NCBI GenBank assembly: GCA_021776335.1
Contig: JAJFGB010000010.1
Span: forward strand, 1 to 64,000
Direction of reading: 5' to 3'
DNA: 64,000 nucleotides
Source: Hyphococcus sp.
Lineage (GTDB): Bacteria > Pseudomonadota > Alphaproteobacteria > Caulobacterales > Parvularculaceae
Shown in pieces: positions 50,232-64,000 of the stretch (positions are counted from its first letter, which is position 1; every line of letters starts with the position of its first letter). The notes below the pieces were generated by a model that worked only from the letters and a program-made list of their open reading frames with translations, made no database searches and had not been told where the DNA came from. The position numbers and the translations under genes are program-made.

Positions 50232-50305
50232 GGCCACGTGGCGGAGTGGTTACGCAGCGGCCTGCAAAGCCGTGTACGCCGGTTCGATTCCGGCCGTGGC
50301 CTCCA
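50232..50305 (+). tRNA. tRNA-Cys (GCA)
   Basis: Acceptor stem GGCCACG pairs with CGTGGCC at 50295-50301; discriminator T, encoded CCA at 50303-50305. Anticodon GCA at 50264-50266 in a 7-nt loop with a 5-bp stem, and a T arm with GGTTCGATTCC. Full cloverleaf can be drawn. Confidence 0.93.
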
Positions 50306-56947: not shown

Positions 56948-57023
56948 TCCCCGATAGCTCAGTTGGTAGAGCAGCTGACTGTTAATCAGCTTGTCGCTGG
57001 TTCGAGTCCAGCTCGGGGAGCCA
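56948..57023 (+). tRNA. tRNA-Asn (GTT)
   Basis: Acceptor TCCCCGA pairs with TCGGGGA at 57013-57019; discriminator G; CCA encoded at 57021-57023. Anticodon GTT at 56981-56983, loop CTGTTAA, and T arm GGTTCGAGTCC. It marks the left side of the accessory region that reaches the window end. Confidence 0.95.
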
Positions 57024-58571: not shown

Positions 58572-58791
58572 GTGACCGGGACCAACCCCGTCAGGCAATA
58601 TGTCTCATACTGCATGGTAAAACGCGGCGTTGACGCGTAACGCAAGTAACGCCTTGACATGTTCACTTCAACGACAAGGAGATCATACCGGCAAAGAGAC
58701 TGGATACTGACACCTTCCCGGGAATGCAGCGAAGCAAATGCTCCACCGGTAACGCTTTAGAACAAAATTTGCACAGTTGAGGACTGAACCG

Positions 58792-59457
58792 ATGCACATG
58801 AATGGCGCGAACGCCGAAGCGGCCTATGATCTTTTGGAAGACCGCATTGCATTATACAAATATCGGCCGGGCATGCGCCTGTCGCCGGACCAGCTTTCAA
58901 ATGACATCCGCATCGGGCTGACGCCAACGCGCACGGCGCTACAATGGCTTCACCGGGACGGGCTGATCGGCCACCAGCACGGCCAGGGCTATTATGTCAA
59001 AACACCATCGACCGATGAATGCGCCGGGCTCTATCGCGGCAACAGAATTCAGCTTGACGGCGCACTTGCCCGGGCGGGCGCGAACGCCGCCAACGGCAAT
59101 AAAAACGACGTGTCACGTGAGAACGGGGTCGTGAAACCGGAAGACCTGGACGGCGCCCTCGACGCCGGCGCGATTAATCACGCGACGGCATATCTCTTTG
59201 CCGATATCGCCTCGCTCTCGGCCAGCGAAATCGTCATACGGGCCGTGCAGACCATCAACAGCCGTCTGCGGTTCATCCGGCTTATCGAGGCCGATGTTTT
59301 TGAGGGCGCTGACCGTGAACTGAACGCTTTGTATGCGTTGATGAATGACAAAAATTACGACGAGCTTCGCGGGGCTGTCGGGGCCTATCATGACAGGCGC
59401 CTAGCGGCTGTTCAGGAAGTTATCGATGCATCATTTGCGCGGGCGTTTCGCCAGTGA
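58792..59457 (+). CDS. GntR-type regulator 1
   Basis: 221 residues from ATG 58792, with GAGGA upstream. N-terminal winged helix (about 8-75): AYDLLEDRIALYKYRPGMRLS, LTPTRTALQWLHRDGLIGHQ and the wing GYYVKTP. C-terminal all-helical ligand domain with low similarity to the FCD group (GAYHDRRLAAVQEV near the end). It shares this ending with the second GntR protein, so the pair looks paralogous. Ligand unknown; likely controls the island. Confidence 0.82.
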   Translation: MHMNGANAEAAYDLLEDRIALYKYRPGMRLSPDQLSNDIRIGLTPTRTALQWLHRDGLIGHQHGQGYYVKTPSTDECAGLYRGNRIQLDGALARAGANAANGNKNDVSRENGVVKPEDLDGALDAGAINHATAYLFADIASLSASEIVIRAVQTINSRLRFIRLIEADVFEGADRELNALYALMNDKNYDELRGAVGAYHDRRLAAVQEVIDASFARAFRQ

Positions 59458-59555
59458 ACCTAGAAGAGAAGACCATCGGGAAATACAGAATTTGGAAGTG
59501 AGGTAACTGGATTTACATGAGCCACAATTAGCGCGCCGGGCTTTCATCCGCACCC

Positions 59556-59679
59556 GGAACCATCCTTCGAGGCCGGACTTTGTCCGGCCTCGAAGGATGA
59601 GGGGCGCGCAATGTGTTCCGGCACAATCCTCATCCTGAGGTGTGAGCAGCCTATGGCTGCGAGCCTCGAAGGATGGTTC
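59556..59679. repeat. REP-pair palindromic unit
   Basis: Two hairpins back to back: a perfect 17-bp stem with 5-nt loop (59561-59577 / 59583-59599) and a second imperfect one around GCAGCC-TAT-GGCTGC (59646-59660). The outer ends GAACCATCCTTCGAGG and CCTCGAAGGATGGTTC form terminal inverted repeats of the whole 124 bp. Looks like a BIME/REP unit known from alphaproteobacteria. Confidence 0.75.
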
Positions 59680-59718
59680 TAAACACGACGTTGTCACGTC
59701 AGCGCAAGGCGGCGGGCG

Positions 59719-59763: not shown

Positions 59764-59875
59764 GAATCATTCATATGATTCAAACAGCCATTCATTACAA
59801 AATCTTTTTACCGATATAGTTTGAAATCAGTTTTCATCGGGATTATTTTCACGATCGCCGCCTGGCGCGGCGCCT
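59764..59875 (+). promoter_or_regulatory. Duplicated upstream element, copy A
   Basis: Starts with GAATC-N8-GATTC (59764-59781), then ATTCATTACAAAATCTT (59790 on), then CGATATAGTTTG. The same series at the same spacing is found at 62777-62884 in front of the first lasso precursor, offset 3013 bp, with similarity continuing at about 60 % by eye to the start codon region. Suggests co-regulation or duplication of a precursor promoter. Confidence 0.7.
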
Positions 59876-59903: not shown

Positions 59904-59945
59904 ATGTTCGCACATGGCGACCTTAGTTGAATGGATGGGATGACG
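59904..59945 (+). pseudogene. Relic of a lasso precursor gene (5' end)
   Basis: Downstream of copy A of the shared element, at the same distance as the real precursor (about 112-114 bp to the ATG), the sequence ATGTTCGCACATGGC aligns with ATGATCGCACTTGGA of the gene at 62915. It reads MFAHGDLS then TGA; a 2-nt deletion next to AGTTGAA would explain the break relative to LGKVSVET. The core region is missing. It appears as a dead copy of the leader-coding part. Confidence 0.5.
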
Positions 59946-60016
59946 GCCCGGTCGAAAACGCGCCAGGCGGTTTTGTTGCTCTCCAGTTGCACAAAACCCA
60001 AATACGCGGAAACAAA

Positions 60017-60718
60017 ATGCTTAACGCAGCGCACAGGACACGAATGATCACGGAAATTGCAGGCAATGGCGTTTATGAGCGCGTAAAGGCGCGCATCATC
60101 GCCCATGAATACGCCCCCGGAAAACGCATTCAGGTCGAGCCCCTGGCCGATCAGTGTTTTGTCAGCAGCACCCCGGTGCGCGAAGCGCTCATCCGCCTTG
60201 CCGCGGAACATGTGATCAATGATGTTCCGAAGGCCGGGTTTTTCATCAAGGAAATATCGGCGTCAGAGATCGAAGGTCTTTACGCCCTGCAGCAATTGTT
60301 GCTGGACTGGTCCCTGAGCACGATCGGAAATGATTGCCGGGGAAATGACAACAGGGCGCCGGGCATTCTCAAACCGCCCGATCTTCTTGGTGAAACGGAT
60401 CAAACGACGGAAATTTCCGCCGTGGCCGCCATACGCATCATGGACAATCTGTTTGTTCATATTGCCCGGCAATCCGGAAACACCGATGTCATCAGCCAGA
60501 TCGCAAACATAAATGACCGGACCCATTATATTCGCCAGAAATATTTTGAAATGTTCGAGGATACGAAAGGCGCCATCGCGAAACTTTGCGGGACCTATCA
60601 CGAAAAACAATTCGACAGGCTGCGCGACGATTTGAGGAATTATTTTCACGACAAAATGGACCGGCTGCCGGATCTGCTCCGGCTGCTGAGGGGATCCGCC
60701 CTCAGAACTTCTGCATGA
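60017..60718 (+). CDS. GntR-type regulator 2
   Basis: 233 residues from ATG 60017 (ATG 60044 also possible; the TTG at 59927 would overlap the relic). Winged helix: GVYERVKARIIAHEYAPGKRIQVEPLADQ, VSSTPVREALIRLAAEHVI and wing GFFIKE. C-terminal helical domain with the paralogous ending GTYHEKQFDRLRDDL. The HTH is closer to the GntR/FadR consensus than that of regulator 1. Ends 37 bp before the ABC exporter gene. Confidence 0.85.
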   Translation: MLNAAHRTRMITEIAGNGVYERVKARIIAHEYAPGKRIQVEPLADQCFVSSTPVREALIRLAAEHVINDVPKAGFFIKEISASEIEGLYALQQLLLDWSLSTIGNDCRGNDNRAPGILKPPDLLGETDQTTEISAVAAIRIMDNLFVHIARQSGNTDVISQIANINDRTHYIRQKYFEMFEDTKGAIAKLCGTYHEKQFDRLRDDLRNYFHDKMDRLPDLLRLLRGSALRTSA

Positions 60719-60755: not shown

Positions 60756-62615
60756 ATGACAGGCGCCTTGAAACAAGCGATTTTTCTTGCATGGTCCGAA
60801 GCCGATGGTTTCGTCAAACGGCGCATGGCCCTGACGTTGCTTTTGGTTTTGGGAACAGCAGCGCTTGCGGCCCTGGCGCCGGTCGCCCTTAAATACGCCA
60901 TAGACGGATTGCGCATCAGCCCGCAAACGGCCCCCGGCTCCGCTGCGCTGACACTCATGAGTCCGGCGGTGCTCATTCTTCTTTATATTGTCAGCCTGTG
61001 GCTTTCCCGATCCCTTGGGGAAGCGCGATGGTTTTTATACGGTACGGCGGACCAGCGGCTGAACCGCAACCTCAGCCGTCGCCTGTTAAGCCATGTCATC
61101 GACCTTCCCATGTCGTTTCATCTCGACCGCAAGACCGGCGCGCTGAACCAAACCCTGGTCCAGGGCCTTGCCGGATACCGTATACTGACCAATCATGCGG
61201 TTTTTACAGTCCTCCCCGTGCTGGTCGAAGTCATGCTGGTCGCCGCCGTGCTGGTCTTTCTGTTTCAGGCCGAGTTTTTGTTGCTCCTCGGCGTTTCGAC
61301 TGCCGCCTATGCCGCGGTTTTCGGGCTCGGCGCCGCGCGCATCATCGGCCCGACCCGCGAGGTCTCCGCGACGCAGATTGAGGCCTATGCGAATATGACA
61401 GACAGCATCCTGAATACGGAAACCGTCAAATCGTTCAGCGCGGAGCGCCAGATCAATGATCGCTATGACAGCGCCCTGGCAAATTCTGAACGCTGGTGGT
61501 CGGTTTTTTACTGGCGCAAATCCGAGAACGGGTTGTTGGCGGCGGCGGTGTTTGCATTGTCCCTTGGCGCCGCCATGACCCTTGGCGCCCTGCGCGTTCA
61601 GCAGGGCGTCATTTCCGTTGGCGATTTCGTATTGATCAACGCCTATATGCTGCAGATCGTCCGGCCCCTGGAAACGCTGGGCGCCGCCTTTCGCGATATC
61701 GCCTATGGCGCCGCCTTCATTGAAAAAATGATGGGCCTGATGGGCCGACAACCGGAAGGTCGCAAAATCAAAGGCCTTAAAACCGAAAACCAAAAACACG
61801 CGGAGCCGGCGATCACCATTGTTGAAGGAGGCGCGCAAGCCCAGGCCGGCGCCGGCCGGCTGGAAATGCGCGCGATCAGTTTTTCCTACCTCCCCGGCCG
61901 AAAAATTCTTGAGGATATCGATTTCACCATCGAGCCCGGTGAGACCACAGCCATTGTCGGTAAAAGCGGCGCGGGAAAATCGTCTCTCATCCGATTGTTG
62001 ATGCGGTTTTACGAACCGGCAAGCGGTGAGATTCTACTGAACGCAAAATCGTCACGGGAAATGCCGCTGGAAGAGTTGCGGCAATCGATCGCGATCGTGC
62101 CTCAGGATACAATCCTCTTTAACGAGACCATCGCCTATAATATCGGCTTCGGCAGACTAGGCGCCGGCACGGCGGAGATCGAGCACGCCGCAAAATTCGC
62201 CCATATCCACGACCGGATCATGGCCATGCCCGACGGCTACCAAACCATTGTCGGCGAACGGGGCCTTAAACTCTCGGGCGGTGAAAAACAGCGGGTGTCG
62301 ATCGCCCGCGCCGTTCTTAAAAACCCGCAGCTATTTATTTTCGATGAAGCAACCTCTTCACTGGACGCAAAGACCGAACAAACCATTCTCGGCAATCTGA
62401 TCGAAATATCCAGGGGCATGACGACCCTGATTATTTCGCACCGTCTGTCCATGGTCGCCCATGCCGACGAGATCCTGGTTCTGGAACAGGGACGGATTGT
62501 CGAAAGGGGCCGGCATGACGCCCTTCTAAAGAACAACAGAAACTATGCCGCTATGTGGCGTACGCAACACCATCAGGAGACGGATGACCCGATCGGGAGA
62601 AAAGAGACCGCGTAA
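60756..62615 (+). CDS. ABC exporter, fused TMD-NBD (Atm1-like)
   Basis: 619 residues: six membrane helices in the first 330 residues, then an ATPase domain. Walker A GKSGAGKSS at about 402-410, signature LSGGEKQR at about 506-513, Walker B IFDEATSSLD at about 527-537. The fused exporter architecture is shared by Atm1/HMT1 and by lasso D proteins such as McjD. Position just before the precursors suggests export or self-protection, but the sequence alone looks more Atm1-like, so a D role is inference. RBS AGGAAC. Confidence 0.82.
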   Translation: MTGALKQAIFLAWSEADGFVKRRMALTLLLVLGTAALAALAPVALKYAIDGLRISPQTAPGSAALTLMSPAVLILLYIVSLWLSRSLGEARWFLYGTADQRLNRNLSRRLLSHVIDLPMSFHLDRKTGALNQTLVQGLAGYRILTNHAVFTVLPVLVEVMLVAAVLVFLFQAEFLLLLGVSTAAYAAVFGLGAARIIGPTREVSATQIEAYANMTDSILNTETVKSFSAERQINDRYDSALANSERWWSVFYWRKSENGLLAAAVFALSLGAAMTLGALRVQQGVISVGDFVLINAYMLQIVRPLETLGAAFRDIAYGAAFIEKMMGLMGRQPEGRKIKGLKTENQKHAEPAITIVEGGAQAQAGAGRLEMRAISFSYLPGRKILEDIDFTIEPGETTAIVGKSGAGKSSLIRLLMRFYEPASGEILLNAKSSREMPLEELRQSIAIVPQDTILFNETIAYNIGFGRLGAGTAEIEHAAKFAHIHDRIMAMPDGYQTIVGERGLKLSGGEKQRVSIARAVLKNPQLFIFDEATSSLDAKTEQTILGNLIEISRGMTTLIISHRLSMVAHADEILVLEQGRIVERGRHDALLKNNRNYAAMWRTQHHQETDDPIGRKETA

Positions 62616-62914
62616 GTAAGTTTCAGACCGCAGCATCTCGCACCGGAAAACCGACATGTGTTTACATGTGACGGCGGGATTTTTTTGCCCGCATTACCGA
62701 ATAATATAATTCAAATATAAAGCTGCTGACACTTTTCAACTTATCCCAACACAAAGTTTCTGATTTCAACCATATCGAATCACTCGAGAGATTCAGGCAT
62801 GTATTCATTACAAAATCTTCTTGTCGATATAGTTTGGAATCAATTTTTGCAGCAACTACTTTAAGAATTGCCACATGACGTGGCGTCAATGAGCAACCCA
62901 AAAAGGAGATCACC
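62616..62914. other. Regulatory gap before lasso precursor 1
   Basis: AT-rich 299 bp. Holds GCGGG-N9-CCCGC at about 62674-62692, which may end the exporter transcript, two ACATGT palindromes (62654 and 62664), copy B of the shared element, and GCCAC-N5-GTGGC at 62870-62884. No gene. Confidence 0.5.
62777..62884 (+). promoter_or_regulatory. Duplicated upstream element, copy B
   Basis: GAATC-N8-GATTC at 62777-62794, ATTCATTACAAAATCTT from 62803, CGATATAGTTTGG, ending in an inverted repeat GCCAC-ATGAC-GTGGC at 62870-62884. Same order and spacing as copy A. Likely promoter/operator of the first lasso precursor; the start codon follows 31 bp later. Confidence 0.7.
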
Positions 62915-63004
62915 ATGATCGCACTTGGAAAAGTTTCAGTTGAAACAAAAGCAACTGGAGTACAGCTCCTCGTTGAAGAAGAAACTGGGCAATTCTACAT
63001 CTAG
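62915..63004 (+). CDS. Lasso peptide precursor 1
   Basis: 29 residues. RBS AAAGGAG seven bases upstream of ATG 62915, and an in-frame TGA 138 bp... closer at 62876 rules out a longer leader. Leader MIALGKVSVETK (12 aa) ends with the LGxxSxET pattern of astexin/caulonodin leaders; Thr11 is the -2 residue. Predicted core ATGVQLLVEEETGQFYI with Ala1 and Glu9 (Glu21 of precursor) for the macrolactam, Phe15/Tyr16 as possible plugs. Ala1 cores are known from caulonodins. A core starting at Gly15 would lack Thr at -2. Followed by hairpins, a second precursor and a B gene. Confidence 0.8.
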   Translation: MIALGKVSVETKATGVQLLVEEETGQFYI

Positions 63005-63014
63005 AGTAGTCTAT

Positions 63015-63085
63015 GTGATCAGCATGCATCTACTTTTCGCCTGATCACAATTTTGAGGTGCCCGAGAAACTTTCCCGGGCATCTC
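63015..63085 (+). terminator. Tandem hairpins after precursor 1
   Basis: First stem GTGATCAG-N18-CTGATCAC (63015-63022 / 63041-63048), then GAGGTGCCCG-N11-CGGGCATCTC (63055-63064 / 63076-63085, one G-T pair). There is no strong T run behind the second, so partial termination or mRNA protection is more likely than full stop. Such stem-loops behind the A gene are common in lasso clusters. Confidence 0.6.
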
Positions 63086-63138
63086 ATTTCTCCTGTGTTG
63101 TTGCATCATTTCGCAGACGCACGGGCTGCAGATTCATT

Positions 63139-63154
63139 ACACAGTATACTGTGT
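63139..63154. promoter_or_regulatory. Perfect palindrome before precursor 2
   Basis: ACACAGTATACTGTGT, 16 bp without spacer, 198 bp upstream of the second precursor start and directly after an ATTCATTACA block (63132-63141) shared with copies A and B. Operator candidate. Confidence 0.5.
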
Positions 63155-63351
63155 GAGTGACAACGAATTACGAAACACTCCATGACACTCACTTGGGAAA
63201 CGTCGCCAGAAGCGCTGAAAAACATACGCTTTCACCGAACACTTTGCGTTTATTTCTGCAGAATTTTCGTATGTCGGAAACCAAGAAAACGATCAAGCTA
63301 AGGGCGTTAGGTTGATAGCTCACATAACAAGACATTCAAGGAGAATTAGTG

Positions 63352-63477
63352 GTGAAGAATTATGATCAGGTCCAGGCAACATCTTTGGTGATCCTCGGTA
63401 GTGTGACGAAGGAGACGGCTGCATGCTTTTGTATGATCGTACCGGAGGAAGATTTAGCGCTTTTTTATATGACATGA
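63352..63477 (+). CDS. Lasso peptide precursor 2
   Basis: 41 residues from GTG 63352, AAGGAGA eight bases upstream. Leader of 23 residues ending LVILGSVTKETA: Thr22 is at -2. Predicted core ACFCMIVPEEDLALFYMT (18 aa), Ala1 to Glu9 (Glu32) ring, Phe15/Tyr16 at the same core positions as in precursor 1. Two Cys (core 2 and 4) fall inside the ring, which is unusual. Pro8 precedes the acceptor. Encoded 96 bp before the B gene. Confidence 0.78.
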   Translation: MKNYDQVQATSLVILGSVTKETAACFCMIVPEEDLALFYMT

Positions 63478-63572
63478 ATCTGCAAGAAAACCGATTCACA
63501 CATTATATGACTGATGGTTGGTCTTCGTGATCTAGGCCTCTGCAATTTCAACACTCACAACACGGAGGTGTT

Positions 63573-64000
63573 TTGATTAATATGGAAAACAGCATCCAGG
63601 AGCCTGGTCATCAGTATCTATTAGCTAATCACATACACGCATGTAGCGCGAATGGCGATCTTGTATTCCTTGATTTGCATGCAGATGAGTATAGTTGTGT
63701 TTTACGTTCGCAAGCAGGCGCTTTTCACCAATTACTCTCCGCTGAACGTCGATTTCGAATCGCCAACGACTGTGGTGTCACATGTGCAGCTCAAGAAACG
63801 ATCCATAACATGGTGACGGCACGAATGTTAACTGAAGATCAATCGAAAGGTAGAATATTTAAGCCCGCCTCAATAGCGCATCCCATAAAAAGTTTTGTTG
63901 GGCAGAAAAAAACACAAAGAATTACCACCACATTATCCGAAAGATGGAACTTTTACATTGCATCATCGACCGCTTTAGCGCGCCTACGTTTTACGTCTCT
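63573..64000 (+). CDS. Lasso peptide B protein, RRE plus start of peptidase domain (partial)
   Basis: Open at the window edge. TTG 63573 (GGAGG four bases upstream) or ATG 63582. The stretch HIHACSANGDLVFLDLHADEYSCVL is the PqqD-like RRE of lasso B proteins (about residues 10-90), which binds the leader. From about residue 118 (LSERWNFYIASSTALARLRF) the transglutaminase-like leader peptidase begins; its catalytic Cys-His-Asp lie beyond 64000. A fused B is usual for proteobacteria. The asparagine-synthetase-like C protein should follow. Confidence 0.78.
   Translation, partial: MINMENSIQEPGHQYLLANHIHACSANGDLVFLDLHADEYSCVLRSQAGAFHQLLSAERRFRIANDCGVTCAAQETIHNMVTARMLTEDQSKGRIFKPASIAHPIKSFVGQKKTQRITTTLSERWNFYIASSTALARLRFTS

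Follow-up and report, generated by a model that had tools for sequence, protein, structure and literature searches.

Lasso peptide leaders generally count 20-40 residues, as stated in excerpts of a 2026 review (PMC13352647), and the leader of microcin J25, with 37 residues in nature, has been shortened by engineering: precursors that retain only the final eight residues of it continue to give detectable product (Cheung 2010, as cited in passages of PMC11420955). According to the same passages, only residues -12 to -10 of McjA form a strand on the RRE sheet in the predicted complex, Thr stands at -2, and therbactin and fusilassin use 6-7 leader residues for binding. Passages of a 2022 review (PMC9266682) describe the astexin, caulonodin and benenodin clusters with an A-B-C order, a divergent isopeptidase, a TonB receptor, a FecR/sigma pair and an upstream GntR gene, and call the function of isopeptidase-type lasso peptides enigmatic. 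They also place isopeptidase and ABC transporter clusters in separate clades, rubrinodin excepted; the occurrence of both genes in one cluster is unusual.

The locus reported here lies at the right edge of the window, a stretch of 64,000 nucleotides (C11:1-64000) from the 4.18 Mb, 11-contig genome of a Hyphococcus sp., and the contig was followed on to position 76000. It shares the above gene arrangement, the LG-x5-T precursor and the fused B with the astexin, caulonodin and benenodin clusters, but differs from them in the presence of an ABC transporter gene and in a precursor, A1, whose leader has 12 residues, as against 14-28 in nearly all other precursors called. An ABC transporter and an isopeptidase together with a TonB receptor and FecI/FecR are also reported, in passages of PMC9266682, for the rubrinodin cluster of Xiu et al. 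(2022), a likeness of gene kinds by description, with a putative isopeptidase on the side of the window. As for microcin J25, its short leader is man-made, whereas the one of the window is natural and recurrent. A close relative by flanking genes is a locus of Marinicaulis sp. OFTM65 (L055, identical to L078), which has the same GntR-GntR-ABC flank, receptor signalling domain, FecR and 12-residue leaders, but other cores and a distant maturation machinery.

Gene content of the cluster

On the plus strand the genes run GntR, GntR, ABC transporter, A1, A2, B and C, followed on the minus strand by an S9 peptidase, a TonB receptor, FecR and a sigma factor (Table 1). The receptor, the FecR/sigma pair and the GntR genes occupy the places usual for the isopeptidase-type (astexin/benenodin) subclass; this subclass is also characterized by lacking an ABC transporter, and here an ABC gene lies next to A1. 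The first-pass annotation, made from the window alone, had read this edge as an undescribed-looking lasso cluster of astexin/caulonodin layout, ordered D?-A1-A2-B, with two tiny precursor genes (LG-x5-T leaders, Thr at -2, acceptor Glu at core position 9), a B protein with an RRE, and a cyclase C predicted past 64000. The contig bears this out: the precursor features lie where it placed them, the order D-A1-A2-B-C holds, the B frame does not end early after 64000 but runs to 64316 (247 aa), an Asn_synthase gene follows, and the isopeptidase to be looked for downstream has a counterpart in an S9-type peptidase at the expected position, with the TonB, FecR/sigma and GntR genes completing the layout. 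The locus is therefore confirmed as a complete lasso cluster with the isopeptidase-type layout, of a kind already known. In this sense, "undescribed-looking" applies to the exact products and not to the kind of cluster: no report of these products, nor of natural 12-residue lasso leaders, was found in the mostly open-access literature searched, which does not prove the short leader to be novel.

Table 1. Features of the locus; positions are those of the contig, whose first 64,000 nucleotides form the window.
Feature	Position	Strand	Basis
GntR-family regulator 1 (chassis)	58777..59457	+	Pfam GntR 4.8e-9; 84% identity in L055
109-nt promoter/operator-like repeat D1, copy 5' of GntR2-ABC	59764..59872	+	direct repeat
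GntR-family regulator 2 (chassis)	59927..60718	+	Pfam GntR 6.7e-14; 75% identity in L055
ABC half-transporter, candidate exporter D	60756..62615	+	Pfam ABC_membrane + ABC_tran; 89% identity in L055
109-nt repeat, second copy	62777..62885	+	ends 29 nt before A1 start codon
A1 lasso precursor, 29 aa (12-aa leader, 17-aa core)	62915..63004	+	Shine-Dalgarno AAGGAG 6 nt before ATG 62915
A1 leader MIALGKVSVETK, residues -12 to -1	62915..62950	+	translation
A1 core ATGVQLLVEEETGQFYI, predicted Ala1-Glu9 lactam	62951..63001	+	mass computed; lactam inferred
Two strong RNA hairpins between A1 and A2	63014..63086	+	fold energy
A2 lasso precursor, leader 23-24 aa, core ACFCMIVPEEDLALFYMT	63349..63477	+	GTG start, AAGGAG
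B, RRE + Transglut_core3 leader peptidase	63573-64316 (in window to 64000)	+	profiles, model
C, asparagine-synthetase-like	64336-66162	+	Pfam Asn_synthase
Isopeptidase E (candidate)	66253-68859	-	S9-type peptidase, position
TonB receptor	68853-71705	-	profile
FecR	72249-73346	-	profile
Sigma factor	73350-73961	-	profile

B scores 72 bits against the NCBIfam model lasso_biosyn_B2 (NF033537, cut-off 33) and carries Pfam Transglut_core3. A model of its in-window part built with 41 relatives (mean pLDDT 83.7) is RRE-like, in line with the earlier claim, and Foldseek ranks leader-bound lasso B1/RRE structures (5v1u, 5v1v, 6jx3) first for it, the best at E 8e-3 and probability 1.00 and none at E<=0.001. 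In the five closest sets Cys189, His221 and Asp233 of B are invariant and are taken for the protease triad; the GGxDS of C is invariant as well. C reaches 79 bits against Pfam PF00733 (cut-off 21) and stays under the NCBIfam lasso cyclase cut-offs (72.7 of 300; 64.5 of 525). Compared with those of the window and L054, the C proteins of L055 and of a Marinicaulis flavus locus (L057) have an SGGxDS stretch shorter by one residue, reading GGLDS with the Ser missing. The 868-aa S9 peptidase aligns in its C-terminal part with the Atxe2-family model NF033523 (75 of 400 bits), and scores 27 bits against AtxE2 itself, behind other S9 peptidases; its candidacy as isopeptidase comes from the S9 fold, position and orientation.

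The two copies of the 109-nt repeat are 72% identical, and their 39-nt core occurs at two places only in the genome, allowing up to 3 mismatches. They match the stretch 5' of GntR2 in L055 at 85% (the GntR2 copy, over 108 nt) and 78%; at length, the repeat is found only in L003 and L055 among 13 loci compared. It is likely a common control site. Beside the GntR genes, positions 59540-59680 of the window hold a palindromic, REP-like dispersed repeat of the CATCCTTCGAGG type, which has 23 genome-wide matches, some of them lying where contig C6 ends. The window also contains tRNA-Cys (50232-50305) and tRNA-Asn (56948-57023) genes.

Short leaders in related clusters and the ABC transporter

The A1 frame reads MIALGKVSVETK as leader followed by ATGVQLLVEEETGQFYI as core. 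Its Met stands at -12 because no start codon lies upstream: an in-frame stop is found 12 codons 5' of the ATG, with no ATG, GTG or TTG in between, ruling out a longer leader from an upstream start. Both A1 and A2 carry Thr at -2 and a small first core residue, with Ala1 and Glu9. Against the NCBI benenodin precursor model (NF033522) A1 obtains 14.7 bits, the cut-off being 33, and aligns from model position 11 of 43.

Related clusters were found through C, with some match in 39 of 149 relatives: 41 C matches at E<=5.3e-41 besides the window's own were fetched as 40 regions, and a contig scan added the best 80 of 164 loci, so that the survey is a sample. Removal of six loci repeating others reduced 123 clusters to 117. 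A precursor was called from the motif together with a Shine-Dalgarno of at least 4 bases within 5 kb of C, and the strand served as control: in these 117 clusters, including the best 80 of 164 loci, 129 motif precursors lie on the strand of C and 1 on the other, the latter belonging to a second C gene on that strand. Calls were obtained in 96 of the 117 clusters (13 with a 12-13-residue leader, 83 with longer leaders only, 21 remaining uncalled); per precursor, leaders of 12-13 residues make up 17 of 131 and those of 14-28 residues 111 of 131, again including the best 80 of 164 loci. Three further leaders, of 38, 56 and 81 residues, seem to reflect odd start calls, a tandem gene or an unrelated frame. 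A profile built from 12 other short-leader precursors, with A1 left out, has A1 as its best place in the 4.18 Mb genome and matches it from its ATG (E 0.004); together with the strand control, this rules out A1 as a chance frame.

Nearly all short leaders begin with M-I-x-LG or close to it, and their genes count 27-32 codons, two of them 37. All 17 have a Shine-Dalgarno; seven lack any possible upstream ATG, GTG or TTG, and the remaining ten could formally start further upstream, but such starts rank lower by Shine-Dalgarno and codon scoring. Within the genus, the 13 clusters comprise that of the window, those of G012 and G017, and two of G022 (G022 presumably being Marinicaulis flavus SY-3-19, and G017 Marinicaulis sp. 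OFTM65); the other eight come from MAGs labelled Alphaproteobacteria, Kiloniellaceae, Steroidobacter, Bacteroidetes, Gammaproteobacteria, Sphingomonadaceae, Hyphomonadaceae and Pseudomonadota. M. flavus (L057 1-19501) has two divergent short-leader lasso clusters, each with its own GntR gene, and a single ABC gene lies between the two. When 12 of the 21 uncalled clusters were inspected again under looser criteria, two further short-leader cases emerged, in Eilatimonas milleporae DSM 25217 (L091 9058, plus strand; predicted core starting with Phe) and in a proteobacterial MAG (L098 6066, plus strand; predicted core starting with Asn), first core residues that fell outside the main precursor motif; no convincing precursor was recognized in the other ten. 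When a profile of seven short-leader precursors was run over 398 genomes of the order, its own seven rows appeared at E<=3.4e-12 and the next at 3.4e-4. Since this profile included A1, it counts only as a negative for further close cases, and speaks against a wide spread of short leaders.

None of ten short-leader precursors tested, A1 included, reaches the cut-off of any NCBI precursor model, that of benenodin (33 bits) included, and curated annotation therefore probably misses such genes. For seven of the ten, an alignment with the benenodin model is obtained that begins at its position 11 or 12 of 43; two, one of them among these seven, align with a lasso leader model, and two match nothing. 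In a FastTree tree of C all 13 short-leader clusters fall in one 51-row half, mixed with longer-leader clusters; with this mixing, several open forks and long branches, strict monophyly of the short leaders is not supported. The same tree contains a supported clade of eight C genes, mostly from gammaproteobacterial MAGs (L077, L079, L080, L082, L084, L095, L096 on the plus strand, and L109), where no precursor is recognizable by motif and some of the contigs are small or break off close to C; these clusters may use a different kind of precursor or have it at another location.

The ABC transporter of the window could be an unrelated neighbour and not the lasso exporter, a possibility that we consider rather unlikely. 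Among the best 60 of 265 solved ABC chains the closest relatives are ABCB/ATM1-type and none is a lasso exporter, so that an McjD-like assignment by sequence was discarded. In addition, 4 of the 13 short-leader clusters (L054, on a 13.4-kb contig, L092, L093 and L094) lack, on either strand, any ABC gene that scores above 200 bits at up to 7 kb from C. The remaining nine have one, compared with 1 of the 83 longer-leader and 5 of the 21 uncalled clusters, although three of these nine genes lie on the opposite strand, and two of these three (L057m, L096m) belong to a neighbouring cluster. When only genes on the strand of C and at most 4 kb upstream of it are considered, an ABC gene accompanies 6 of the 13 short-leader clusters, none of the 83 longer-leader ones and 4 of the 21 uncalled ones. 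All these counts are taken over related clusters, which are not independent. Furthermore, 6 of 28 genomes of the genus have a relative of this ABC protein at E<=1e-100, and 6 of the 8 places concerned are either right at a lasso C gene or about 8 kb from one at most, which argues against an unrelated neighbour. An ABC gene exclusive to short-leader clusters was ruled out, since it lies downstream of C in L076 (17-residue leader) and genus relatives also occur some 7-8 kb from the long-leader clusters L038, L071 and L072, past the 7-kb search range.

The two precursors

The A2 frame reads (V)VKNYDQVQATSLVILGSVTKETA followed by ACFCMIVPEEDLALFYMT. It matches no family model, and it is missed at E<=10 when the short-leader profile is run over the 4.18 Mb genome. 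Its best start is a GTG at 63349/63352, with AAGGAG 5-8 nt upstream, which gives 23-24 leader residues. The likeness between the A1 and A2 cores exceeds what composition provides, their score being reached by 6 of 200,000 shuffles, or 97 of 200,000 when residues 1 and 9 are kept fixed, and among 128 surveyed cores that of A1 is the most like that of A2. Given the length of the A2 leader from its best start and the failure of the short-leader profile to find it, the cluster seems to pair one short and one long leader for sister cores, and the short leader seems not to be the rule even inside its own cluster. It is nevertheless conceivable, if clearly unlikely, that the A2 leader also counts 12 residues, beginning at the TTG of SLVILG and leaving the longer frame untranslated: the start TTG-GTG-ATC-CTC-GGT would give MVILGSVTKETA, with the 12 residues usual in its group, but only a weak AGG precedes this inner TTG, as against the full AAGGAG of the outer GTG codons. 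Recomputed masses agree with those predicted in the first-pass annotation (1877.941 for product 1; 2076.907 for product 2, or 2074.891 with a disulfide).

The existence of a longer sister raises a third alternative, in which A1 would be a truncated, decaying copy of A2 that has lost the 5' half of its leader, with A2 as the real substrate. The common length of the A2 leader, the paralogous look of both genes and the lack of anything 5' of residue -12 would suit it. On the other hand, A1 keeps the Leu-9, Gly-8, Lys-7, Thr-2 and Lys-1 of the short-leader group, A2 has no lysines at -7 and -1, the promoter repeat stands 5' of A1, and leaders of 12-13 residues, each gene with its Shine-Dalgarno, are found in 12 other clusters. 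Because such leaders recur in 13 of the 117 surveyed clusters, decay of the A1 leader is very unlikely, and we favour a functional short leader. Between both genes, the stretch 63005-63100 folds at -33.3 kcal/mol (z -5.27). An intrinsic terminator after A1 was discarded, as a pattern scan of 62600-63600 was negative despite the two strong hairpins, which may be an attenuator or a 3' stabilizer of the A1 mRNA.

Probable cassette exchange and proposed working

Comparison with L055 separates two parts of the locus. Besides the GntR and ABC proteins (Table 1), FecR is well conserved (72% identity), whereas identity drops to 34% in B, 35% in C, 24% in E and 49% in the TonB receptor. Within the latter it is 98 and 82% around the signalling domain and 23-68% from residue 199 on, the plug beginning at residue 232. 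At the DNA level both loci align up to 62726 and again at contig positions 71019-71499, inside the receptor gene, and 72241-73619. The stretch in between, of about 8.3 kb and unaligned except for the promoter repeat, has a G+C of 0.43-0.53 for most of its length, against 0.51-0.59 in its left and 0.47-0.61 in its right flank, and the A genes, which precede B in the window, follow C in L055. The C protein of L055 is 64-71% identical to those of L085 and L081; its ABC protein is 55-69% identical to theirs and 89% to that of the window. A grouping of window and L055 is rejected by the C tree (cost of 119 log units, p-AU 1.1e-5), while the ABC tree joins them at 98/96; this pair had been named from the ABC identity before these trees and after the larger C tree, and it is unaffected by row L096m of the ABC tree, a gene of the other cluster on its contig.

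As the C and ABC trees conflict, an A-B-C-E-receptor-barrel cassette of about 8.3 kb was probably exchanged on a fixed regulatory chassis, a conclusion drawn from one genome pair. The break point is inside the receptor gene; the direction of the exchange might be read from the G+C and from the closeness of L055 to L081 and L085. RiPP cores and receptor barrels are able to evolve fast, but that A, B, C, E and the barrel merely did so relative to their flanks is hardly credible in view of the opposite affinities of C and ABC, the rejected grouping, the displaced A genes and the lower G+C of most of the cassette relative to its left flank.

We regard it as very likely that this is a working isopeptidase-type lasso cluster in which the A1 leader is close to the shortest that the enzymes need. 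The biochemical steps, lasso topology, transport direction, regulation and signalling proposed for it are modelled on known families. One type of promoter, probably controlled by one of the GntR proteins encoded at the locus, would stand before both GntR2-ABC and A1, the latter being translated as a 29-residue peptide. The RRE of B would hold leader residues -12 to -10 (MIA) as an added strand, and the LG at -9/-8 together with Thr at -2 would bring the bond between Lys-1 and Ala1 into the protease site of B. C would then activate Glu9 and link it with the amine of Ala1, closing a 9-residue ring around the tail EETGQFYI, and the ABC transporter would export the lasso product. Finally, the TonB receptor may import it and, by way of its signalling domain, notify FecR and the sigma factor of its presence; the candidate isopeptidase would open it. 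Natural short leaders retain just residues -12 (or -13) to -1, which may reflect a shortening down to the portion that B needs to contact. Since the therbactin and fusilassin precursors bind with more leader residues, A1 could be a weak substrate.

More tentatively, and at somewhat less than even confidence, the lasso peptides may be a private signal of their own receptor. A fixed chassis (the GntR pair, ABC exporter, receptor signalling domain, FecR and sigma factor) would take swappable cassettes in which precursor, maturation enzymes, isopeptidase and receptor plug and barrel travel together, with the leader shrunk to the 12 residues touching B as a natural lower limit. The right swap border, between the signalling domain and the ligand-binding part of the receptor, hints at a matching of peptide and receptor that could be tested by pairing cassettes and receptors. 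Natural 12-residue leaders would mark the part of the leader that cannot be lost and may supply cell-free lasso synthesis with minimal substrates. Annotation also seems to have a blind spot for precursor genes of 27-32 codons (two of 37), all ten tested lying under curated cut-offs. The value of the locus would thus lie in a recurrent minimal leader and in a cassette border within the receptor gene.
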